From Candidatus Thiodiazotropha endoloripes (GTDB lineage Bacteria; Pseudomonadota; Gammaproteobacteria; Chromatiales; Chromatiaceae), in the NCBI GenBank assembly GCA_001709035.1, contig LVKA01000016.1:310001-374000 (forward strand): 64,000 bases of DNA, written 5' to 3'. Of this stretch, positions 1 through 22,643 are shown in pieces. Within the stretch, counting starts at the first letter, position 1, and each line of letters opens with the position of its first letter. The position numbers were made by a program, and so were the translations under genes. The notes under the pieces are model-generated. The model was not told the origin of the DNA. It worked only from the letters and a program-made list of their open reading frames with translations, and did not search any database.

Positions 1-2
1 GG

Positions 3-1847
3 GCCAAGCAGAGTGATCCGGAAGCCGAGCGGATCACCGTGGCCAACTACAACCTGCCCAAACCCAGCCGCTTCTTCACAAGGCTTGCATCCATCCTGGA
101 AACCGAACCGACTGTTGCCAGAATCACAGCCGCTGCTATCAAGCCCACACAGACCGACACACTGCCAGACCAAACAGATTCAACCACAACGGATCCCAGT
201 TGCCGTACCAACGATCAATCGGCCGCCGTAGAAGCGATCATCCATGTGGTCAAAGGCCATGGCAAACGGCCGCTGGTACTCAGCTCCGACCGGGGACGCG
301 GTAAATCCTCAGCCCTGGGGATCGCCGCCGCCCGGCTTCTCCAGAACGGCTACAAGCGCATCCTGGTAACCGCCACACGACAGGCTGCGGTGGAAACCCT
401 GTTCGCCATGGCAGCCCTTGAACTGGGGATGGAACAACAGGGAGCGGATACCCTACACCACCTGCATGGCGAAATTGAGTATGTCGCCCCGGATCGATTG
501 ATCCTGGAGCAGCCCAAGGGAGATCTTCTGCTGGTGGATGAAGCAGCCACCATCCCCACGCCCCAACTCAAAAAACTGCTGGCCCACTACCCCCGTATCA
601 CCTTCGCCACCACAGTGCATGGCTATGAAGGCACCGGCCTGGGATTCAACCACCGATTTAAAAAACACCTCGACCAGCAACGCCCCCAGTGGCGGGAGAT
701 TCAGCTCAAGACACCGATCCGTTGGGCATCCAATGATCCCCTGGAACAGCTGGTCTTCAGAATGCTGGCCCTGGATGCAGAACCGGCGCAGATTAATTCG
801 GACCTGAGCCTGGATAAGAACCAGCTCTGCGTAACATTTCCCAGCCAGAAGCAGCTGATGGAAGATGAACAGCAGCTGCAACAGTTCTTCGGCCTGCTGG
901 TCCTGGCCCACTACCGGACCACACCGAGGGATCTCTGGCATCTGCTGGACGGACCGAATCTGCAACCGGTGGTTGTGAAACATCGACAACAGATCATCGC
1001 CGTCGCCCTGCTCGCTTCTGAAGGGAAATTCTCTACGGAACTCGCAGAACAGATCTGGCTCGGTCGACGACGCCCCCGAGGACACTTACTGGCCCAATCA
1101 CTCTCCGCCCATCTGGGTTTGAGAACGGCGTCGACTCTGAAGGGATTGCGGATCATGAGAATTGCCGTGCATCCTGCCCTACAAAACAGAGGCCTTGGTC
1201 AACAACTGCTTAATGCGATACAAAATTACGCCACTGATCAGGCGTATGACTATCTAGGTGTCAGTTTTGGTGCTGAGGCGAGACTGATTCGATTCTGGCA
1301 GGCCAACGGCATGAAAGCCGTAAGGCTGGGTATCCACCCGGGAGCAAGTAGCAGTCAGCAATCGGTAATGCATATCCAGGCCCTGAGTAGTAGAGGCGAA
1401 TCGATGCTGAAACAAGCTAGAACCAGCTATGCCAGACAACTGCCAGCACTGCTTGCAGAGCCACTGAGTCAAGTCTCATCCGAGTTGCTCGTACTCCTGC
1501 TCAAGGGGCTTGAAACACCCCCCGTGTCGGATCTGACAGAACAGGAGTGGTTGGATGCGATTGCTTACGCTTTTGGCAATCGGGGATATGACTATACCCA
1601 GAGCACCATTCAGACACTCGCCTTAAATGCACTTGTCGATGGGCTGTTAGATGACGCGGAGAACAGCCTGTTGATTAAACGAGTGCTACAAAAACAGGTA
1701 TGGAATGATTGCACGAGAGCACTTGATCTCTCCGGTAAGAAAACCGCAGATTCAAAGATACGTAAAACCTTGCAGAAGGTTGTTTCTCATTATGCTGACA
1801 GTGCAACCTCTGATCTAGTTTGTAAGATCAAAAGGATATCTGATTAA
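3..1847 (+). CDS. tmcA: tRNA(Met) cytidine acetyltransferase TmcA, 5' end cut by window edge
   Basis: TmcA acetylates the wobble cytidine (ac4C34) of elongator tRNA-Met using acetyl-CoA and ATP. Reading from the GTG at 39 as residue 1, a Walker A-like loop SDRGRGKSS lies at about 83-91 and a DEAATIP Walker B box at 167-173, so the helicase-like ATPase module is intact. A GNAT acetyl-CoA loop (AVHPALQNRGLGQQL) lies near 375-390, followed by the tRNA-binding tail. The frame stays open to the first base of the window. About 600 residues are visible against roughly 670 in the E. coli enzyme, so the true start is probably upstream and the GTG at 39 is internal. It is the last gene before the foreign-looking cassette on the opposite strand. 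Identity is confident; the start is unknown. Confidence 0.93.
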   Translation, partial: AKQSDPEAERITVANYNLPKPSRFFTRLASILETEPTVARITAAAIKPTQTDTLPDQTDSTTTDPSCRTNDQSAAVEAIIHVVKGHGKRPLVLSSDRGRGKSSALGIAAARLLQNGYKRILVTATRQAAVETLFAMAALELGMEQQGADTLHHLHGEIEYVAPDRLILEQPKGDLLLVDEAATIPTPQLKKLLAHYPRITFATTVHGYEGTGLGFNHRFKKHLDQQRPQWREIQLKTPIRWASNDPLEQLVFRMLALDAEPAQINSDLSLDKNQLCVTFPSQKQLMEDEQQLQQFFGLLVLAHYRTTPRDLWHLLDGPNLQPVVVKHRQQIIAVALLASEGKFSTELAEQIWLGRRRPRGHLLAQSLSAHLGLRTASTLKGLRIMRIAVHPALQNRGLGQQLLNAIQNYATDQAYDYLGVSFGAEARLIRFWQANGMKAVRLGIHPGASSSQQSVMHIQALSSRGESMLKQARTSYARQLPALLAEPLSQVSSELLVLLLKGLETPPVSDLTEQEWLDAIAYAFGNRGYDYTQSTIQTLALNALVDGLLDDAENSLLIKRVLQKQVWNDCTRALDLSGKKTADSKIRKTLQKVVSHYADSATSDLVCKIKRISD

Positions 1848-1961
1848 TTCTCTTTTCTTCGCCCGGTGAATGCCAACTCACTCAGAGGCACATGTGAATA
1901 TCGCTTCATTTCCTCATGCCATATATTACTTCCAATATGATAATGCATGACTTTTTTCATT

Positions 1962-1988
1962 GACTGCTTTCGGCCATAAGCGGACATT
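1962..1988 (-). repeat. short repeat-like sequence at the left edge of the defence cassette
   Basis: Read on the minus strand this stretch begins AATGTCCGCTT and continues with GGCCGAAAGC. A sequence starting with the same 11 bases and similar beyond lies on the plus strand at 7313-7340, on the other side of the three-gene cassette, so the two copies are inverted relative to each other. From memory, related short sequences are dispersed in gammaproteobacterial genomes; this was not checked. Confidence 0.45.
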
Positions 1989-2003
1989 AGAATAGTATTT
2001 TAC

Positions 2004-3350
2004 TTAAGCTATTTGAGGTTTCAGATCACCTTCCAACATAGCTATACAAAACCGGAGGCTGTAGCCATTTAAGCGGTGATTGGGCCAAGCATCCTTTTCA
2101 AAGGACACGCTATACAGGTCATAGATATCATCCATATTTTCTTCACTGATAATCGCCTCTTTTATCTTTTCAGGAAGGATCTGATTGGTGCTTTTTTGAA
2201 ATAATGTCTCGACAACATCAAGCATCTTTTCTCGGGCTATATCTGCATCCTTGCTATCATTTACATTCACGGTCACTTTCAAGGATCGTGCAGAACGGCT
2301 ATTCCCATCGATATAATAAGCGAAATTTGCTTTTATAATCCCATCCCCAAATTCTACATATGGAGCTGAAGCAAACCAGTCTCCTTGCAATTCCTTATAA
2401 TGCCCTGTTTCTACACCTTGATTTTTAAGAAATTCTTGTGCCTCATATGGCGACCACCCTTCAGTTTTTGAAACGGAAGGCGGGTTTCTCTCAACCCTTC
2501 GCATGGCGCTGAAATCCTGCCACGCTTTGAGTACATCCCGAAGATTATTGATATCCCGAACTTGAAGCATCCATACCCACCGCTCAAGGTCTTTAATATG
2601 GAAGTTGAATACAATAAGAGCAAAAGCTTTAGTAAATCGTTTTACCCATTTGTCTTTTACGGAAAACTGCAACGTCACAAATATATTCTCATAGGTTGTG
2701 TAAACCACTAGAAAGAAAATTAACGGCAGGTAGGCCAACGTTAAAAATGGAGGAAGCAAAAAATCTTCGGCAGTTTCCGGTTTTGCAAACTCTGAAAAAT
2801 TTGTGACTAATTCATATAGCGCATAAATAATCAGAGAAAGTCCAAAAATCGACAAAATCATTCCGAACAGGTTTTCAACACTCTTATACATTTTATCTGC
2901 TTGAGAAAAAGCATGCAGCATAGTGATGAAAACCAACACTGGAAACAGAATTAATTCCGCCCAGAATGGAAGCACATAAAACCCGATCAGAAATTCGACC
3001 AATGCAATAAGTTTTATATTGTCTAATACGGTCTTCTTAAATAACCCGCTGTTATTCTTGTATTTCTCAAGGTCAAAAAATGACAGGAAAGCCACAGCAA
3101 AAAACCAGATCATCGTGTTTTTAAGCTGCCCGATATGCCAGAGATCAATTTCGTGGAGACAATAGACTAGAAAAGAAACATAAAATAATGCCAAGAAGAG
3201 TAGCGCTTGAATCTTCCAGACAAAGAAGGATTGGATAACATCTACCAATGGCCCCCTGACTTCTCGCATTCTTGGCGACAGCCCTAAATAAAGTGCTAAG
3301 GCTGTAAACCATATCAATATTGACCACTCCCTATTATTCAGTACATCCAT
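2004..3350 (-). CDS. unrecognised multi-pass membrane protein, third gene of the defence cassette
   Basis: I do not recognise this 448-residue protein. The N-terminal half is strongly hydrophobic, with about seven likely membrane segments near residues 8-25, 42-64, 78-94, 111-127, 130-147, 160-182 and 198-218. From about residue 226 it is a soluble, charged domain that would face the cytoplasm or periplasm. No nuclease, TIR, protease or nucleotide-binding motif is evident. The ATG at 3350 is preceded by AAGG and lies only 18 nt after the helicase gene stop, so the three minus-strand genes are probably one operon. Base composition is A+T rich like the two upstream genes. By context it could be a membrane effector or accessory protein of the OLD/UvrD pair; that is inference only. 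Confidence 0.75.
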   Translation of the reverse strand: MDVLNNREWSILIWFTALALYLGLSPRMREVRGPLVDVIQSFFVWKIQALLFLALFYVSFLVYCLHEIDLWHIGQLKNTMIWFFAVAFLSFFDLEKYKNNSGLFKKTVLDNIKLIALVEFLIGFYVLPFWAELILFPVLVFITMLHAFSQADKMYKSVENLFGMILSIFGLSLIIYALYELVTNFSEFAKPETAEDFLLPPFLTLAYLPLIFFLVVYTTYENIFVTLQFSVKDKWVKRFTKAFALIVFNFHIKDLERWVWMLQVRDINNLRDVLKAWQDFSAMRRVERNPPSVSKTEGWSPYEAQEFLKNQGVETGHYKELQGDWFASAPYVEFGDGIIKANFAYYIDGNSRSARSLKVTVNVNDSKDADIAREKMLDVVETLFQKSTNQILPEKIKEAIISEENMDDIYDLYSVSFEKDAWPNHRLNGYSLRFCIAMLEGDLKPQIA

Positions 3351-3368
3351 TACCTTGAAAACTCATGT

Positions 3369-5249
3369 TCATACTAGCTGAATTATCCACCCATGCTGCT
3401 CTAGCTGCGTCCTTACATCAGGCTGAATTCGGTCCTGGTGAGCCGCCATACAAAGGAGCCTACGAGGTCTGCTAGCGGCTACGTAAAGCTGTCTGGCAAA
3501 TTTTTGCTTCCGCGGTCCGGAAATTGCCCCGTTTTGCGTGAACGCCAACCTTCCGGATAGCGTCTCTAGATCATACTGGTGATTTTTTGTCTCCAGTACC
3601 AACGTCGCATCATGTGTTTCACCTTTCACAGAATGGATCGTTCCGATTTCTATTTCACGACCGGAAGCTGAGCGATATAAATTCGCCGTTCCAGCCTGGG
3701 AAATAACGTTATCGTCGTCATTGCTCTCTGAATAGACCAAATATTCTTTCACCGGCCCCTGTTCACCGTCAATTCCCAGTACAGACAACAACTTAGTGCA
3801 TTGTGCCTCCCAGAGTTCCTTTGAGGGGGTTCCATCCATAATCCAGGACGTAAGCAGACATTTAAACTCTTCGTGTACTCCCGTGGTCCTTAAATGGCTA
3901 CCAAGACTGGTCGCGGAATAGTGCCTTGTATAGTCTCCGACGCTTTCAGTAATGCCGCCTCTACGTAACAAATCCAGTACGCACTGCATGAGTAGTGCGT
4001 ATTGAAAGGCCGCATCAGCTTCCGTCGCCCACCACTCACGTGATACCGCCTCAATGAGCAACTGGGGCCTCGGTGTCTTAACGGATTTTGTTCTATCGTA
4101 ACCAGGCCAATACTCGCTGATAAAGCCACCCTGGCCTTCTGTGCCTCCCACGGCCTTTGCACAACGAGACTGGTTGTTTATCTCCAACGCATCGAGCAAT
4201 TCGCAAAATCTCTCCAACACATTTTCTTTTGTCGCATCTGTGTAGAGAAATATAGTGTGAGGGGTATTATCTGAAGCCTCTCTAAACGATTGAAGTTCGC
4301 CTATCCCTGTGACACTCAGACCGGATATCTTGGCAGCTATATCTACCGGAAATCTATGTGTGCTTTTGAGGGGAACAAGCGCGCCATTGCCATTGAAAGT
4401 CTCATTCGGACTCTCTCCACCCATATTGTCGAAAATGGCCTGGTCCGGATCACCCAACCTTTGCAGCATAACATCATCGCAAAGAAACAATTCGTTAATG
4501 AGATCCTCCTGATATTTTTGTGTATCTTGCATTTCGTCCACGAGGACATAGGAAAAACGTTTTCTGATCGCGCTTACAACCTCGCTATTCTCTTGTATGC
4601 ACTGCTTTGCAAAGTAGTACATCTCTGAGTAAAAAAAGTATCCCCGGTCAAGCCGTTCAAGAAATACTTCCACAAGATTCTTATAAGAAGGTTTGGTCGA
4701 TTCATTTCTGAAGCCTGGAACCTGAACCTCCCCAGTCTCATGGTGAATCTTAAGATCGGATATAGATGCGTACTTCTTGTTAGCTAGAAAGGTCCTTGTT
4801 CCATAACTAATCCGGCTTCCCATCAACGACGCGCAGGCATCATCATCTATACGGACAGGATTCATCTCAGTTGATCGCAAATAGGGTGATGCCAAATATC
4901 TGTTAATAAACTCCTGAATAGTTCCAATAAAGTTGGGGTACTGCGTGAGCCGAAGGCCCGAAGGGTGGCTCTCAATTCGAGCGATAATTTCATTACGGGC
5001 GACGTTGGTATGCGTCAGAACGCATACTCCCGAGTCCGCAGACCTCAGCTTCTTTTCTAGAATGAGAAGCTTGGCCGCAACAATCGTCGTCTTTCCGCTA
5101 CCCGGACAGGCCTGAATATCGTCCCAGGACTTGATAATAACCCGCCTATCGTCGTCAAATTCGAGAGTCATCGACGGGTCTGAAAGCCTTTGGTTGTAGT
5201 CCTGGAGGAACTCGTCGATATCGTTATCAGTAATCTCTAGCTCAGGCAC
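3369..5249 (-). CDS. UvrD/Rep-family superfamily 1 helicase, GajB-like
   Basis: A 626-residue SF1A helicase. Motif I is ACPGSGKT (47-54), motif II VLVDEMQD (235-242), motif III GDPDQAIF (266-273), motif V GTIHSVKGET (536-545) and motif VI QLYVAASRPRRLL (587-599). The stretch before motif I is short and lacks the usual LNxxQ Q-motif of UvrD and Rep. The start is the GTG at 5249, placed directly after the TAG of the OLD gene with a strong AGGAGG seven bases upstream; the two genes are surely co-translated. A class 2 OLD nuclease next to a UvrD-like helicase is the hallmark of Gabija. At 626 residues it is longer than the roughly 490-residue GajB that founded the family, so it is called GajB-like and not GajB. 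Confidence 0.85.
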   Translation of the reverse strand: MPELEITDNDIDEFLQDYNQRLSDPSMTLEFDDDRRVIIKSWDDIQACPGSGKTTIVAAKLLILEKKLRSADSGVCVLTHTNVARNEIIARIESHPSGLRLTQYPNFIGTIQEFINRYLASPYLRSTEMNPVRIDDDACASLMGSRISYGTRTFLANKKYASISDLKIHHETGEVQVPGFRNESTKPSYKNLVEVFLERLDRGYFFYSEMYYFAKQCIQENSEVVSAIRKRFSYVLVDEMQDTQKYQEDLINELFLCDDVMLQRLGDPDQAIFDNMGGESPNETFNGNGALVPLKSTHRFPVDIAAKISGLSVTGIGELQSFREASDNTPHTIFLYTDATKENVLERFCELLDALEINNQSRCAKAVGGTEGQGGFISEYWPGYDRTKSVKTPRPQLLIEAVSREWWATEADAAFQYALLMQCVLDLLRRGGITESVGDYTRHYSATSLGSHLRTTGVHEEFKCLLTSWIMDGTPSKELWEAQCTKLLSVLGIDGEQGPVKEYLVYSESNDDDNVISQAGTANLYRSASGREIEIGTIHSVKGETHDATLVLETKNHQYDLETLSGRLAFTQNGAISGPRKQKFARQLYVAASRPRRLLCMAAHQDRIQPDVRTQLEQHGWIIQLV

Positions 5250-7205
5250 CTACTCGCCTCCTGTATCGGTTGCTGCTGTAGCAGTTTCCTCGGCAACGGG
5301 AGGCGTGCTGAACGGTTCGGTAACATAAGCGATAGCGTCCTTAATGTACGCGGGCATCTTATCCAGAAGTCGATTTTTACCATCCGCATCCGAATAGTCT
5401 TCAATCAGTTTCTGGCTTAGGCGGTATGCCACATCGGTCTTGAGGCTGCTTGATTCAATGAGCCCGTATATTTTTATGGCCCGCAGTTCCGGTTCAGCAG
5501 GGAGGTCCGCGAAGGCCGGATCATCCTCGCCCTTTACGAGGTCATATATATCTTCTGCGAGACCGCTTCGGATAAGGCAGTATTCAAATGTCCACTCATC
5601 AGAAACGAAAACTTTCGTATTTTGTAAGTCAACTAGGGTGAGCTTTGCTTCTTCATGCAAGACTTCGAATGACTGGAGTGACTTTTTCTTGTCAACTACG
5701 GCAGTTCCAAAAGTCACGCCATCAGAGCCTAACCGGGGCAACCAGAAATGCTTGTTCCTGGACTTGAGCGTCTTGAATCCCACATCCTCATTGACGGCGC
5801 TATCGGCAGCTTCCGGCCAAAGATCAATGTCTCTGAGACAGGCAACGCGAATGGGCAGCTTTGGTGTGTCGGTGCTCAGAGTAGCCCTTCTAAGGAATAT
5901 TTTTGCATATCGGATGTAAGCGGTGTTTCCAACATTGACCACGCTTACACCATAATCCTCCAGAGGCCTACCGAGAAGATTTGAAATCGTAGGAAGCAAA
6001 ATGTTCTCACCATCACCCTCTACAACTAGAACTGACTTCGCGAAGAACAAATTCGACTTCGTTACGTCGAGAAACTTCTCAAGAAAAACATAGTCTTCCG
6101 GATTGAGCAATGTTTCGCTTTTTGTTAGAGGAAACGCGGCCCCATTTGAAACCAGGATCATGCTTTCAAGGGGCGCTTTAGAAGCCAAATTGGGGCTATG
6201 GGTGGTAAGGATAGTCTGAAATGTAGCTGAGTTGGTGTCCGAGTAGATATCTCTGATAAATTTTAAAAGCTTCATTTGTAACTGCGGGTGCAAGTGAGCC
6301 TCGGGCTCTTCGATTAACAAGAGCGGGAAGTCACTTTTCTCCTGCTCAAGCAATATCAACTCTGTAGCCATGAAGAGGATATTGCTATATCCAAGCCCTT
6401 GCATGGGCTTTGACACATCAAGTACCAAACTCAAGCGTTGCAAAATATCCTGAAACGCACGCTCTCGCTCTAGAGAGTTCAGCGTGTCAAATTCCTGACT
6501 GCCAAGCATTTGAATGGACAAATCAAATTTGTCCGTATTGAAAGTAAGCTCTCTAACGTAGCGGTCAATATCTGACCGATTATCTTTTAACCCCTGATTA
6601 TTCTTCGCTTCACTACTCGCTTCGATCAATCCCTTGAGCAACGCCTCGAAATGAACTCCATCACGTTTGAAGTGCTTCGAAGAGGAGAGTATTTGTGCAA
6701 GCCTAGAACCTCGACCAGAGGACAGCTCCGCCTCGGCATCTCTAAGCGGCTTCAAATACGTTGACGAAAGATAATCCCGAATTTCTCTTTCGATAGAGAG
6801 ACCGTCACCATTTATCCCTGACCTCAACTCTGTCCGTATTAAGCGGTTTCCCCGCCTAATCACTTCGGTACGGCGTGCGGTCAAAGTCACATATAAGACG
6901 GAATGTCTTACACCTTCATCCCGTTCTTCATGTGTAAGATGCTCTACAAAGGTACGGGCCTGATCTGGCGTAATGCTGTCAAACTTGAGTTTGATTGAAA
7001 AAGTGTCGGAAGAATTATTGAAATCGGATTCGGCTATGCGGGTCCATTCCGCTGAATTCGTATCCAGAGTGAGCCGTATGGCATCAATTAGCGCAGTTTT
7101 GCCGGAATTGTTTTCGCCGACAAGTACGTTAAGCCCTGGGTTCAAAGATAATTTTAAACTTTCAAATATCCTAAAGTTCAGAATATGTAGTTCAGAAACA
7201 TACAT
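5250..7205 (-). CDS. OLD-family ATPase/TOPRIM endonuclease, GajA-like
   Basis: An ABC-type ATPase fused to a TOPRIM nuclease domain. Counting from the ATG at 7205, Walker A GENNSGKT is at 30-37, a signature-like LGYSN region near 271-275, Walker B LLLIEEPEAHLHP at 295-307 and the H-loop TTHSP at 334-338. The TOPRIM domain shows VVEGDGE (394-400) and RDID (458-461), the expected acidic metal ligands. The tail after about residue 640 is Thr/Ala-rich and disordered-looking. The ATG at 7205 is preferred over the one at 7253 because AGGGA lies about nine bases upstream and homologues begin right at the beta strand MYVSELHI. At 651 residues it is larger than the about 578-residue GajA. It heads a three-gene operon with a helicase and a membrane protein. 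Phage defence by DNA cleavage is inferred from family. Confidence 0.85.
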   Translation of the reverse strand: MYVSELHILNFRIFESLKLSLNPGLNVLVGENNSGKTALIDAIRLTLDTNSAEWTRIAESDFNNSSDTFSIKLKFDSITPDQARTFVEHLTHEERDEGVRHSVLYVTLTARRTEVIRRGNRLIRTELRSGINGDGLSIEREIRDYLSSTYLKPLRDAEAELSSGRGSRLAQILSSSKHFKRDGVHFEALLKGLIEASSEAKNNQGLKDNRSDIDRYVRELTFNTDKFDLSIQMLGSQEFDTLNSLERERAFQDILQRLSLVLDVSKPMQGLGYSNILFMATELILLEQEKSDFPLLLIEEPEAHLHPQLQMKLLKFIRDIYSDTNSATFQTILTTHSPNLASKAPLESMILVSNGAAFPLTKSETLLNPEDYVFLEKFLDVTKSNLFFAKSVLVVEGDGENILLPTISNLLGRPLEDYGVSVVNVGNTAYIRYAKIFLRRATLSTDTPKLPIRVACLRDIDLWPEAADSAVNEDVGFKTLKSRNKHFWLPRLGSDGVTFGTAVVDKKKSLQSFEVLHEEAKLTLVDLQNTKVFVSDEWTFEYCLIRSGLAEDIYDLVKGEDDPAFADLPAEPELRAIKIYGLIESSSLKTDVAYRLSQKLIEDYSDADGKNRLLDKMPAYIKDAIAYVTEPFSTPPVAEETATAATDTGGE

Positions 7206-7312
7206 TACCGATATCCCTAATATTAATTTAGACCGTCTTCTCCGGCCAGGCATCTATGTTGCTTAGCCGTCAGCTTTTATGACCAAGGTGTACTTCACTC
7301 GAGGGCTCAACC

Positions 7313-7340
7313 AATGTCCGCTTTGGGTCGCTTGCGGACA
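7313..7340 (+). repeat. short repeat-like sequence at the right edge of the defence cassette
   Basis: Begins AATGTCCGCTT like the minus-strand copy at 1962-1988. It also contains its own inverted arms TGTCCGC (7315-7321) and GCGGACA (7334-7340) around a 12-base loop. It lies 108 bases upstream of the OLD gene start and just beyond the end of the HExxH gene. Confidence 0.45.
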
Positions 7341-7358
7341 ATTTCATTACTCAACTTA

Positions 7359-8147
7359 TCATAAACTTCGCGGCACATAAGCCACCTCCTTCAACTCAGC
7401 AATCGCATTGCTACGATCAAGTTCATCCAATGCCCTCTTGATATACCCTTTCACATTCACATCACAGTGAGGAAAAGCAATTTCCGGCTCTAACCCTTTA
7501 AGACGCAGAAAGATTGCCAGTGCATAGCTGTGCTCGGCCTCCGTAAGATAACCGCCGCCAGACGTTTGCCAGCCAACCGCATCCACGCTTGCGTGTTGCC
7601 GGAAATTGAAAGCGGCGTTTGCCTGGAAAATACCGAACCCCAGAAAGGTAGCGCCAATATCTGTAGCAAACTCCCAGTTTTCCCATCCGCCGGGAGGTGG
7701 TTCTGGTGCTGTGCCGGTGAGATAGTGGGACAACTCATGAGCGAAGGTCGCCACCATTTGGGTTGGATCATCGGTGAGTTTTGGGTTGTAGGTGATCGTG
7801 GCTTGGTTATTCTCATTTACCGAGAAGGTGCCGAGGGGGCTTTGCTCCACGTTTTGCACGGTTAAAGTCGGGGCAACCCGTAGATTAGGATCTTCCTCCT
7901 GAACCTGGAGGGTTACCGGCCAGTTCTCCAATCCGGCGTATTTCATCACTTGTTTTAACGTGGTCTGGGCAGCGGATTCATTTGAGTCGACGATGGAAGG
8001 AAAATAGTCACTTGTGGGGAGAACGAGTTGGGCTTCTTTATAGAAATCGTTCCCTCCGAAATGGGTCAGCAGCCATCTGTAACACTCGATTTGAAACCGA
8101 GTGTCTTGTTCGGTGAGTAACGGCTTTTTACGAAAGGGATTCCACAC
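7359..8147 (-). CDS. uncharacterised protein with HExxH zinc-metallopeptidase motif
   Basis: I cannot name a family. About 262 residues with a clear HELSH motif near residue 140 (context ATFAHELSHYL), the zinc-binding signature of gluzincin-type metallopeptidases. A third ligand is not obvious; a downstream EAEHSYA segment about 70 residues later is a candidate. There is no signal peptide or membrane segment, so it is probably cytoplasmic. The GTG at 8147 is chosen because AAGGA sits eight bases before it; a TTG two codons upstream is too close to that site. It runs in the same direction as the defence cassette but is separated from it by 153 bases with a repeat-like sequence, so it is probably not part of it. 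A candidate promoter lies at 8223-8252. Confidence 0.7.
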   Translation of the reverse strand: MWNPFRKKPLLTEQDTRFQIECYRWLLTHFGGNDFYKEAQLVLPTSDYFPSIVDSNESAAQTTLKQVMKYAGLENWPVTLQVQEEDPNLRVAPTLTVQNVEQSPLGTFSVNENNQATITYNPKLTDDPTQMVATFAHELSHYLTGTAPEPPPGGWENWEFATDIGATFLGFGIFQANAAFNFRQHASVDAVGWQTSGGGYLTEAEHSYALAIFLRLKGLEPEIAFPHCDVNVKGYIKRALDELDRSNAIAELKEVAYVPRSL

Positions 8148-8222
8148 GGTCAAATTCCTTTTTACTCATGATTGTTGTTTTCCCGAGTTCCCCTGCCCTG
8201 TTGGGTATTTATTTAGACGTTC

Positions 8223-8252
8223 TATATAACACCCAATTTAGGACAATATCAA
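8223..8252 (-). promoter_or_regulatory. candidate sigma-70 promoter of the HExxH gene
   Basis: On the minus strand TTGATA (8252-8247) and TATATA (8228-8223) are separated by 18 bases, giving a leader of roughly 70 nt to the GTG at 8147. The match is fair, not strong. Confidence 0.4.
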
Positions 8253-8570
8253 TCACTTAGCTTCCTGCCTTTCTACTCCTCTATTCGCGCAATAAGCCTG
8301 GGGCCACTCCCTCTTAATCCCCGTCCCGGCACGAGCGAGAAGCGCAGGCAAAAGCCGATCAGCGGGCCTGACTGTTTGAGCGATAGCGAGTTTCAGGCCC
8401 GCCGGTTTTTGCCGAGCATCGCAGCGGACCCGAAGGGGCGTGACGGCCGGGCGCTCTGTCTGTTGGTTACTTATCTTTTGGCGCAAAAGAAAAGTGACTC
8501 GCCCAGGAGGGCGAAACAGGGAGTTTCCGACACGAGATTAAGAACGAGTGGCTACACCATCGAATAGCCA
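8253..8570. repeat. structured non-coding, repeat-like element
   Basis: This gap between the HExxH gene and the antiporter carries no credible gene. It holds a perfect 10-bp inverted repeat, GCGGGCCTGA at 8362-8371 and its complement at 8393-8402, followed by a run of T at 8406-8410. A second hairpin, TCTTTTG-GCG-CAAAAGA, lies at 8474-8490. From memory, the phrase around the second hairpin resembles dispersed repeats that yield spurious short frames in proteobacterial genomes. Copy number cannot be judged from one window. Confidence 0.4.
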
Positions 8571-8578
8571 AATTGACA

Positions 8579-9994
8579 TCATGACTTATGTGACAATCGA
8601 TACGCCAGCACAATCGGTGCTGCAAAGGTGGTCACGATCACCATAATGATCACCGTCGCAAACAGATCCGCAGACAAGACACCCAGACTCAAACCCACAT
8701 TCGCAAATACAATACCGACTTCACCACGAGGCACCATCGCCCAACCGACGGTATTTTTGTCCACACCCGGCCCTGCTGCCCAACCGGAGACATACTTGCC
8801 TACGATCGCCGCAACGGATACAGCCAGTGCAATACTCAGTATGGTCGGATTCGCCACCAGTGACGCCAGATCGACCTGCATGCCCGTGTAGAAGAAGAAC
8901 ACCGGCACGATAAAGATCACAAAACCATGTATAAGGTCTTCAATGTGCTTGTCGCTGTGTTTGTTGATGGTGGCTTCCAGAATGCGGCGCGATTCCTTCT
9001 CACACTTGGTGTCGTTGTGAAACAGCCGCTCACGCAACTCCATGATCGCTTCCGGCTCCTTGAAGTAGCGGAAGTGTACCGGATCGAGTGCCAGCCCCAC
9101 TGCGTAGGCGCCAACGATCATCTCTAATCCGACTGAGTAGGCAAGCACCGCAAACACGATGCCTATGCCCATCACGAAGGCCGCCTTCATCTCCAGGCTG
9201 TCCTCCAGCCGGCTCACCCAATAGCTGAGGCCCGGCGCGATGCTCTGACCGAACAGAATGGCCACCGCGAACAACAGGATCGCTTTGGCGATGATGACAA
9301 ACATGCTGCCGATACCAACTGCTTCGGCGTCACCGCTGGTGGCGGCCAGTGATGATACGAAAGCGAGGATCACAAGACCCAGTACATCGTCGATGACGGC
9401 TGCGGAGCGCACCATGATTGACTCCGTGGAGTCCTTCTGCCCCAGGTCCTCAAACGTTCGTGTGGTGATGGCGATGGAGGTGGCGGAGAGTGCCGCACCG
9501 AAGAACAGGTAGACCACATCGGACTGCCCCGGCATCAGTACCGCCAGGGTGACGTAGCCAAGCACCATCGGTGCAACCACCCCGACGATGGCAACCGCCA
9601 GGGAGCGGAGCCCGACGCTCATGATGTCTTCAATGTTCGATTCGAGGCCGATCTTGAACAGCAACAGGACGACGGCGTATTCTGCAATGATGCGGATGAA
9701 TTCGGTGGTCTTGATCGGTTCCAGCCAGTCGAGACCGGTCATCAGCGCGAAATTGCCGGCAACGATGCCGGCGGTTATGCAGCCCAGAACTGCTGGAATA
9801 TTGATCAGCTTGAACAGACTGGCGAAGGCCCGGGCAAGTACCATGGCCACGGCAAACCAGATGAAGGATTGCAGGATGACTTCGTGAGCACCACCTCCGT
9901 GTTCAGCGCTGTGCTCTCCCTGGTTGAGCCAGAGGAGTACAACCACAGACACTGTGAGTAGCAGTATCTGGAACGAGCGTTTAGAGACGGGCAT
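8579..9994 (-). CDS. CPA2-family cation:proton antiporter (Na+/H+ exchanger domain)
   Basis: An inner-membrane antiporter of the monovalent cation:proton antiporter-2 family, exchanging Na+ or K+ for protons. From the ATG at 9994 it is 471 residues with about 12-13 hydrophobic segments across the whole length. The paired acidic residues of the ion site are seen in AAVIDDVLGLVIL (D202-D203). A charged loop around 325-365, rich in Glu and Lys, splits the membrane domain. There is no C-terminal TrkA-N domain, so this is not a KefB/KefC type. The start at 9994 is supported by AAAGGAG seven to eight bases upstream; an in-frame ATG seven codons earlier has no such site. Ion specificity cannot be told from sequence. 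Confidence 0.85.
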   Translation of the reverse strand: MPVSKRSFQILLLTVSVVVLLWLNQGEHSAEHGGGAHEVILQSFIWFAVAMVLARAFASLFKLINIPAVLGCITAGIVAGNFALMTGLDWLEPIKTTEFIRIIAEYAVVLLLFKIGLESNIEDIMSVGLRSLAVAIVGVVAPMVLGYVTLAVLMPGQSDVVYLFFGAALSATSIAITTRTFEDLGQKDSTESIMVRSAAVIDDVLGLVILAFVSSLAATSGDAEAVGIGSMFVIIAKAILLFAVAILFGQSIAPGLSYWVSRLEDSLEMKAAFVMGIGIVFAVLAYSVGLEMIVGAYAVGLALDPVHFRYFKEPEAIMELRERLFHNDTKCEKESRRILEATINKHSDKHIEDLIHGFVIFIVPVFFFYTGMQVDLASLVANPTILSIALAVSVAAIVGKYVSGWAAGPGVDKNTVGWAMVPRGEVGIVFANVGLSLGVLSADLFATVIIMVIVTTFAAPIVLAYRLSHKS

Positions 9995-10384
9995 GTACAG
10001 CTCCTTTCCAGTCACAGAATTTTAGTTACCTTAGCATGACAAAGCAGCTTAAACCACGGATTGCAAAGGTATGAACGGCGTATGACTGTTTGTTATGTTA
10101 TCGGTCCGGAATGCCAAGACTTGATGGCCTCTGGGAGATAAATAACAGGCAATTTCTGCTACCCCCCCTCACCCAATTAGCTGCAGGGCCATCCCCTCTC
10201 AGTCTGCTACCGTGAACCGGTAAGCGGTCACTGCTGTCCGGAATGGATTCCGATCATCTGGGTGAAAGGATGCAGCGGTTGATTTTGAAGGGTATTAGCC
10301 ATGGCAGTGACTCATAAACGAAGATTCATAATCCGGATAAGTCAATCTTAAACAGACCTGGATGGTGCTTACTCAAACCTTTTT
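9995..10384. other. gene-free interval upstream of the antiporter
   Basis: I see no credible coding frame, RNA gene or clear promoter pair in this stretch. It should hold the antiporter promoter on the minus strand. Confidence 0.5.
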
Positions 10385-10445
10385 GGTGGGGCATGGCCCC
10401 ACCCTACACGCTGAACTCTATGGTAGGGTGGGGCCATGCCCCACC
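10385..10445. repeat. double-hairpin palindromic repeat (REP/BIME- or MITE-like)
   Basis: Perfect 23-bp inverted arms at 10385-10407 and 10423-10445 enclose a 15-base spacer. Each arm is itself a hairpin, GGTGGGGC-ATG-GCCCCACC and its mirror, so the element can fold as two small hairpins or one large cruciform. It stands alone in the gap between the antiporter and the radical SAM gene, with no transposase nearby. Confidence 0.7.
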
Positions 10446-22400: not shown

Positions 22401-22643
22401 ATGAGGCACATCGGGCAACAGCTGTTCAAACAGCTGCCAGAGGAAGTTTGCCGGCAGGGGAAACTCCAGATTGGCGCTGATCCCCAGTTGAGATGCAATC
22501 CGCTGTGAAAGCCAACGCCCCATTCCGGGATGCTGAACCACGATCTGTTCGCTCTGCAGAGGGGATAGAGCTGGGGTAGCCAGCACCTCGGCCAGCTGCC
22601 GCGCCAGAATTTCAAGTTGGTTGGATTGGTAGAGTCTCAACAT
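19473..22643 (-). CDS. recC: exodeoxyribonuclease V subunit gamma, RecC
   Basis: RecC scaffolds RecBCD, splits the DNA ends and recognises Chi through an inactivated helicase-like fold. The 1056-residue chain starts with a typical RecC N-terminus (LYQSNQLEILARQL) and the QHPGMGRWLSQRIA segment. MTTDIERYAPLLEAVF and GMNDGQFPRQ are characteristic, and no functional Walker motif is present, as expected. It is somewhat shorter than the E. coli protein (1122). The C-terminus overlaps recB by 10 bases. It is the first gene of the recCBD operon; the HDOD gene lies 67 bases upstream on the same strand and might share transcription. Confidence 0.95.
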   Translation of the reverse strand: MLRLYQSNQLEILARQLAEVLATPALSPLQSEQIVVQHPGMGRWLSQRIASQLGISANLEFPLPANFLWQLFEQLLPDVPHQDSYQPKHLAWRIHQLLASLSGQPDYAAIGDYLSDGGDLRRFQLSQQLARLFDQYLLYRPDWIHAWQAGESAVPGDHWQADLWRKLVDQESRHWVHFQQQLFQSIDTAKPLNACNPRVCIFGVPSLSPGYLEIIRYLANWIDVHLFLLNPCQAHWAEIVTPEEQARFSLAASGEDLYLDLGHPLLATLGRQGRDFFAAINEMDPGSEEAFTMQPDGSLLHRLQNQILNLEPPEAGAEADDSISFQLCHSPMREAEVLYDQLLAALDDLPGLRPDEILVMTTDIERYAPLLEAVFAAPGERPKIPYRISDHSIQRSNPLAEGLLSLLSLPGSRYGVTELLALLEQAAVRARFGLDEAGLEKVTQWLQQASIRWGRDGANKVDFGLPEEDRNTWRAGLRQLMLGYALADHGESLWRGVYPLDAVEGSDSQWLGGLLAFTEAVFELESVFAESATPLQWQRRLTDTIERFFAVESNTEQDLIGVRSCIEQLVEETGDAGYQASLSLALVRHRLSELFEQPVERGFLGGGVNICALAPMRSLPFRVICLLGMNDGQFPRQPQDLGFDLMRREFRNGDRSRRVDDRYLFLETLLSARQRLIISYCGQSQRDNMPMPASVVVEELRDCLQQMVGETGLARISQRHPLQPFSPDYFRSGSDLFSYSTEMREAAMTVGRGRAVDLPLVEQPLPATESQQVIELDQLIQFFENPQRQFARLRLGINLEAAAQLPEERERFAYDRFEQSDLEHQMVDLLLQEQPAEPLFELFDGRGLLPHGQAGRLAFEAMLDRAQSMSSRVADCQGERLEAPLVVEIPFEQNRLSGYLRTVNQSGLLVYNTAGLYPYHLLRAWIRHLVLNQLRPEGVSLETRLLEAERDGRFTPVDQPEEHLQKLMQAYQTGMQTPLPFYPGTSWQFVERYLQGDPEKAQKEAERKWFGSSHHSGDASKPYNQLLYQGHALNHQAFSETSLTLLQPLMQHLEWQ

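Follow-up and report, generated by a model that had tools for sequence, protein, structure and literature searches.

The Gabija defence system is described as having two components, both in a review of the overcoming lysogenization defect (OLD) nucleases (PMC10568477) and in a paper on Gabija structure (PMC10822852), in the portions of these papers available to us. The TOPRIM active site of Bacillus cereus GajA (BcGajA) is formed by E379, G409 and D432/D434 (PMC10781630, available in part), and a preprint, likewise available in part, proposes linear DNA without RecBCD engagement as the target of Gabija (PMC12407980). The literature searched, from which most subscription papers were outside coverage, contained no title or abstract opening that describes a membrane third gene of Gabija. 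Here we analyse a window of 64,000 nucleotides from Candidatus Thiodiazotropha endoloripes (contig LVKA01000016.1, positions 310,001–374,000), in which three co-directional minus-strand genes at 2004–7205 encode GajA, GajB and an undescribed membrane protein. We call the last MEM, a label used for the protein of gene 3350–2004 and for its relatives. An earlier, sequence-only reading of this window had proposed that the membrane gene defines an extended variant of Gabija. We find that MEM and Gabija are not generally linked, and that the segment holding the three genes is replaced by another in a sister species. With a probability of about two in three, the locus is a complete Gabija system forming an exchangeable cassette, together with a portable MEM that would act separately and be unneeded for GajAB activity.

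The gajA–gajB pair and the membrane gene behind it

The gene gajA (5250–7205, minus strand) encodes a class 2 OLD ATPase–TOPRIM nuclease of 651 amino acids, and gajB (3369–5249, minus strand, with a GTG start) a UvrD-like superfamily 1 (SF1) helicase of 626 amino acids; both were identified by PADLOC, by PDB chains and by motif search. In PADLOC, GajA matches PDLC00099 with an E-value of 1.2e-204 (residues 1–631 on positions 1–620 of a profile of 626), and GajB matches PDLC00147 with an E-value of 6.7e-201 (residues 5–625 on positions 5–635 of 637). GajA also matches Pfam AAA_15 and OLD-like_TOPRIM, both above cut-off, and the solved B. cereus chains are matched with E-values of ~2e-10 (GajA) and ~3e-5 (GajB). 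Walker A (30–37) and Walker B (295–302) motifs are present in GajA, as are the TOPRIM residues E396 (in VVEGDGE), G426 (in VNVGN) and D459/D461 (the DxD in RDID), which were equated with those of BcGajA from motif context, not from structure. In GajB, Walker A lies at 47–54 and the DExQD motif is DEMQD at 238–242. The TAG stop of gajA directly abuts the GTG start of gajB, with AGGAGG 7 bases ahead of the GTG. The Gabija arrangement with its AGGAGG site, as first read from the letters, is thus borne out, and the pair is a real, complete and apparently intact Gabija pair, ordinary in itself. Both proteins are indeed larger than their founding counterparts from B. cereus (578 and 494 residues), but the lengths of the PADLOC subfamily profiles rule out size as a mark of extension, 651 and 626 residues being normal by that measure.

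The MEM gene (2004–3350, minus strand) starts 18 bases past the end of gajB, as had been claimed, and encodes 448 amino acids. In an AlphaFold2 model built with 12 relatives (mean pLDDT 78, pTM 0.58), the part up to residue 230 contains seven long helices; a simple hydropathy scan gives six membrane stretches, so that we predict six to seven transmembrane helices followed by a C-terminal alpha-beta domain (~300–438). If there are seven helices, the charge pattern suggests a topology with the N-terminus outside and the C-terminus inside; six would change it. The residues invariant in a 12-row alignment are N5, R7, E8, W14, W71, W82, E132, P200 and L203, of which E132 sits inside the fifth long helix of the model. 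MEM matches nothing in PADLOC, Pfam, NCBIfam, PHROGs or PDB sequences, and a fold search with the model returned no PDB structure at E <= 0.001 and, in BFVD, one match, to a 155-residue phage protein. The C-terminal domain also stands alone in small proteins (L003, 1432–1917; L004, 1273–1917; L007, 5830–6438), of which that of L007 is weakly DUF6030-like, below the Pfam cut-off; judged by eye from their N-termini, the three look secreted.

The three window genes are real genes rather than chance open reading frames (ORFs), because GajA and GajB match their profiles at full length and MEM has full-length relatives. MEM and gajB are probably co-transcribed, since a terminator would hardly fit into a gap of 18 bases. 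This gap is overlapped by a promoter-like match at 3361–3333, in a region where such matches are at chance level (10 found, 10.4 expected). The G+C contents of gajA (46.2%), gajB (47.6%) and the MEM gene (39.1%) all lie below those of the five flanking genes measured (50.6–57.9%), which agrees with the A+T-richness initially noted for the three genes. The composition of the MEM gene is, however, unlike that of the Gabija pair as well as unlike the flanks, and the lowest-G+C stretch of 1.5 kb in the window (38.5%, 1751–3250) falls mostly on it.

Distribution and neighbours of MEM

Whether MEM belongs to Gabija was examined from both sides, by profile searches of six-frame translations. Besides the window there are 27 MEM loci (L005, L006, L009–L027, L055, L082 and L093–L096), and one of them, L020 of Faecalibacterium sp. 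I4-3-84, contains a GajA plus GajB pair. In the opposite direction, none of 16 other GajB loci was found to carry MEM; these were 12 of 139 plasmid records (partly picked for spread), three other genomes and the sister genome G370, with L020, itself located by way of MEM, excluded. There is thus no general link between MEM and Gabija; and because the relatives of MEM occur mostly without Gabija, MEM is better described as a portable add-on than as a fixed third part. Conservation of the membrane gene with OLD–UvrD pairs in unrelated genomes, as expected of a Gabija variant with a membrane subunit, was not seen. The refutation check set beforehand by the sequence-only reading, a membrane gene lacking association with OLD–UvrD pairs elsewhere, came out mostly against the variant. 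The third gene does encode a membrane protein outside the known Gabija profiles, but the claim that it defines a variant of the system is not supported, and an extended Gabija, weakly supported and disfavoured by both counts, is not established.

In the Faecalibacterium locus, MEM lies upstream of Gabija, which is of another subtype (GajA PDLC00102, GajB PDLC00148); this MEM belongs to another clade and its C-terminal half differs from that of the window MEM. Because both the MEM clade and the Gabija subtype are different, MEM and Gabija were probably joined on two or more occasions, a pairing that is recurrent rather than conserved. A tree of the membrane part, made from 22 of the 28 MEM genes (six fragmentary or interrupted ones being omitted), pairs the window MEM with that of Arcobacter (support 0.965) and the Faecalibacterium MEM with a clostridial one that has no Gabija (support 0.995). 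Two weak matches were not counted as Gabija: a 354-amino-acid ORF in the BREX region of L026 (GajA profile, E-value 6e-11) and a GajB-profile match in L011 (E-value 6e-7). The AAA ATPase adjoining MEM in Arcobacter was ruled out as a GajA, since it is AAA_13/PDC-S06. At related Gabija loci, third genes of other kinds overlap the end of gajB, one encoding 518 amino acids with DUF6883 (L053, 4387–5943, minus strand) and one encoding 347 amino acids without a Pfam match (L054, 3970–5013, minus strand), so other third genes exist in this part of the Gabija family.

In searches of whole genomes, MEM was found in 4 of 369 genomes of the class and 4 of 398 genomes of the phylum, two of the four being the C-terminal domain only in either case, in 2 of 295 genomes of the order of the Faecalibacterium genome, and in 4 of 295 genomes of the family of the Roseovarius genome (central genomes counted throughout). 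The contig scan used a single N-terminal peptide pattern, and the set is biased to that motif; near-duplicate plasmids (a second Arcobacter and a second Salmonella one) were left out, as was L092, a duplicate of L021. At least 10 of the 27 loci are truncated, interrupted or ended by a contig boundary, and the MEM of L012 is without a standard start codon ahead of the motif. No MEM was found in phage records, and a search of E. coli genomes for the MEM gene of Salmonella was negative; a second scan of viral contigs with A2 and one with GajB gave nothing that could be confirmed. A relative is plasmid-encoded in the archaeon Haladaptatus halobius (L096, 5929–7308, plus strand).

Known or candidate defence genes are direct neighbours of MEM in 7 of the 27 loci, and the partners are of several unrelated types; what is claimed here is recurrence, not statistical enrichment. 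In Roseovarius (L013, 9932–17512, plus strand), MEM is followed directly by a PifA-like KAP NTPase gene and then by PD-Lambda-4_A, as identified by PADLOC. The KAP genes adjoining MEM in L016 and L015 are 90.6% and (over 480 residues) 93.5% identical to that of L013, and L016 has a PD-Lambda-4_A relative too. On the Arcobacter plasmid (L005), PDC-S06 (AAA_13) lies directly upstream of MEM; in L014 a truncated MEM is flanked by PDC-S21 and PDC-S60. In L095 (4446–8956, plus strand) an interrupted MEM copy begins within the last 4 bases of a gene for an SF1 helicase of 1,167 amino acids that matches MkoC (E-value 1e-69), and the locus has no GajA. BrxC is encoded ~1.7 kb from the truncated MEM of L026.

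These neighbourhoods bear on the notion that MEM is an unrelated passenger, that is, cargo of mobile elements, serving exclusion, say, or another purpose at the membrane, which came to lie next to gajB by accident and is unconnected with defence. Many MEM genes do lack a recognised defence neighbour: those of Salmonella (L006) and of genome G256 (L055) are near integrase genes, that of L012 is beside a resolvase gene, those of L009 and L017 are among housekeeping genes, and the one on the archaeal plasmid also belongs here. The recurrent direct contact with defence genes of unrelated types tells against such a chance landing, which we hold to be improbable.

The same contacts admit a bolder idea, that MEM is a portable family of membrane effectors, spread over distant bacteria and one archaeal plasmid, which has docked onto unrelated defence ATPases and helicases that sense DNA or NTPs, adding to each a second arm that acts on the membrane. 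Its partners would be Gabija (apparently twice independently), the PifA-like KAP NTPase, AAA_13 and the Mokosh-C-like helicase. This idea we regard as tentative and rather unlikely; if it were true, the Gabija of the window, otherwise an attacker of DNA, would become a two-tier system. MEM represents a hitherto undescribed family of membrane proteins, found repeatedly next to defence NTPases of unrelated kinds.

The exchange site between tmcA and a putative metallopeptidase gene

Comparison with the sister genome G370 establishes that the three genes lie at a site where defence cassettes are exchanged. The flanks are alike at the DNA level, with 95.0% identity over window positions 1–2004 and 93.6% over 7313–10424, and the segment between them differs. 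That of G370 contains another Gabija subtype (GajA PDLC00093, E-value 4e-195; GajB PDLC00143, E-value 4e-177), with a GNAT acetyltransferase gene ~400 bases past Gabija, and is without MEM. MEM is part of the same exchanged segment as the Gabija pair. A third genome, G376, shares the right edge next to the HExxH-type gene, and there the edge is followed by a gene for a 1,753-amino-acid protein that matches Avs4 (E-value 5.5e-18) in two partial stretches. The site corresponds to 1959–7342 in the window, 2676–7590 in L048 (G370) and ~4461–9764 in L049 (G376). In ten relatives, the stretches around tmcA or the peptidase gene contained no empty site at which these two genes directly adjoin each other.

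Next to the exchange site is the putative HExxH metallopeptidase gene (7359–8153, minus strand), with a SprT-like match below the Pfam cut-off; relatives of it, at 67% identity or more, occur in 8 of 22 genomes of the genus, that of the window included. The right edge of the exchanged segment is marked by the imperfect palindrome AATGTCCGCTTTGGGTCGCTTGCGGACAAT (7313–7342), whose form, GTCCGC-N12-GCGGAC, recurs at this edge in both G370 and G376. A partly decayed copy at the left edge (1959–1988) is intact in G370; after tmcA in G376 it was not found. In an independent repeat search the two window copies make up the 30-base inverted pair I1, 73% complementary with 5,324 bases between the arms, which encloses the three genes and little else and is the longest of the 12 listed pairs, the majority of which are probably due to chance. 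In the five other genomes of the genus inspected (G371, G761, G759, G763 and G372), the orthologous gene has no such palindrome next to it, and no defence gene was recognised at the site when ORFs were compared with genes of the window and its relatives only, not by PADLOC.

The palindrome was rejected as an abundant genome-wide repeat, since the genome, 4.87 Mb in size, has 3 copies of AATGTCCGCTTT. A pattern with exact arms, which misses decayed copies, has matches in 14 of the 22 genomes of the genus, and their number is no higher than that of a reversed-pattern control in 21 of the 22; the genome of the window has 3 against 1. The TTT-type sequence of the palindrome is confined, among the 22 genomes, to this site in G000, G370 (twice) and G376. 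The palindrome may terminate transcription of the peptidase gene, serve as a recombination site, or do both; none of the three window genes is a recombinase gene. The genes recC, recB and recD lie at 22643–14051 (minus strand), ~7 kb upstream of gajA and on the same strand. Two sister species with different Gabija subtypes at the same place, bordered by related short palindromes, offer a natural comparison of the swapping of defence cassettes and of the contribution of a third gene to Gabija.

That the three genes were exchanged as one segment speaks for a genuinely extended Gabija, in which MEM would be a functional third component, such as a membrane effector that opens once phage DNA has been sensed by GajAB, giving a second, cell-killing arm. 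The 18-base spacing on the same strand favours it too, as does the second, apparently independent MEM–Gabija neighbourhood in Faecalibacterium; two such pairings together with the exchange in one piece keep the idea alive. The counts of 0/16 and 1/27 tell against it, as do the Faecalibacterium locus, in which MEM is upstream, has a different C-terminal half and accompanies another Gabija subtype, and a MEM composition unlike that of gajAB. All in all, we think a third component of this kind unlikely.

We prefer a Gabija cassette of the GajA nuclease-ATPase and the GajB helicase, placed between tmcA and the putative metallopeptidase gene, with MEM riding behind gajB, probably on the same transcript. 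MEM would be a portable membrane gene of defence islands that joined the operon, and that elsewhere either accompanies other NTPase-based defence genes or genes of mobile elements, or has no such company. GajAB would attack invading DNA, as judged by homology to Gabija systems already characterised. MEM would have a separate action at the inner membrane, where it would most likely be an auxiliary effector or serve in exclusion; it would be dispensable for GajAB activity, with a role of its own or that of a helper and not that of an essential Gabija subunit. This is supported by the full-length profile matches and the motifs of GajA and GajB, the two counts, the varied neighbours of MEM, its nearest relative in Arcobacter, its G+C content and the replacement in G370 by a segment without MEM. 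Several points weigh on the other side. The close spacing of MEM and gajB on one strand, in an exchanged segment that the three genes fill, would fit a co-selected three-gene module. The two Gabija neighbours among the 28 MEM loci, window included, may exceed chance. Orphan MEM copies could be remnants, and at least 10 of the 27 other MEM genes are incomplete, be it through a break, a truncation or the end of a contig. The GajB side is a sample of 16 loci; PADLOC was run on selected neighbours (batches of 10, 8 and 8 proteins, MEM neighbours only in part), not on all; and the low G+C content of MEM may come partly from the codons of a membrane protein.

Comparison with known systems

The window pair resembles Gabija (PDLC00099/PDLC00147) in its two full-length proteins, in the order gajA–gajB of abutting genes and in having all of the ATPase, TOPRIM and helicase motifs. 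It differs in the co-directional membrane gene behind it, which is present in none of the 16 other GajB loci. A class 5 OLD protein of the archaeal Sulfolobales, Cran1, is an OLD-family ATPase whose gene lies in one putative operon with that of SiRe_0087, a predicted membrane protein (PMC12796447), a likeness of gene arrangement. Cran1 is set apart from the GajA–GajB class and, in the portion of that paper available, was not antiviral in the assays and had a dispensable membrane gene; the OLD protein of the window does not fall outside the GajA–GajB class, a full-length GajB adjoining it. The Mokosh-C-like locus L095 is similar in that MEM directly follows an SF1 helicase gene, with its 4-base overlap, and dissimilar in that the helicase is MkoC-like and longer, at 1,167 amino acids, GajA is lacking and the MEM copy is interrupted. 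In the PifA-like loci (L013, L015 and L016), a MEM relative directly adjoins an NTPase that matches PifA in PADLOC; there, however, the KAP NTPase takes the place of the OLD–UvrD pair, and MEM lies upstream of its neighbour, whereas in the window it lies downstream.

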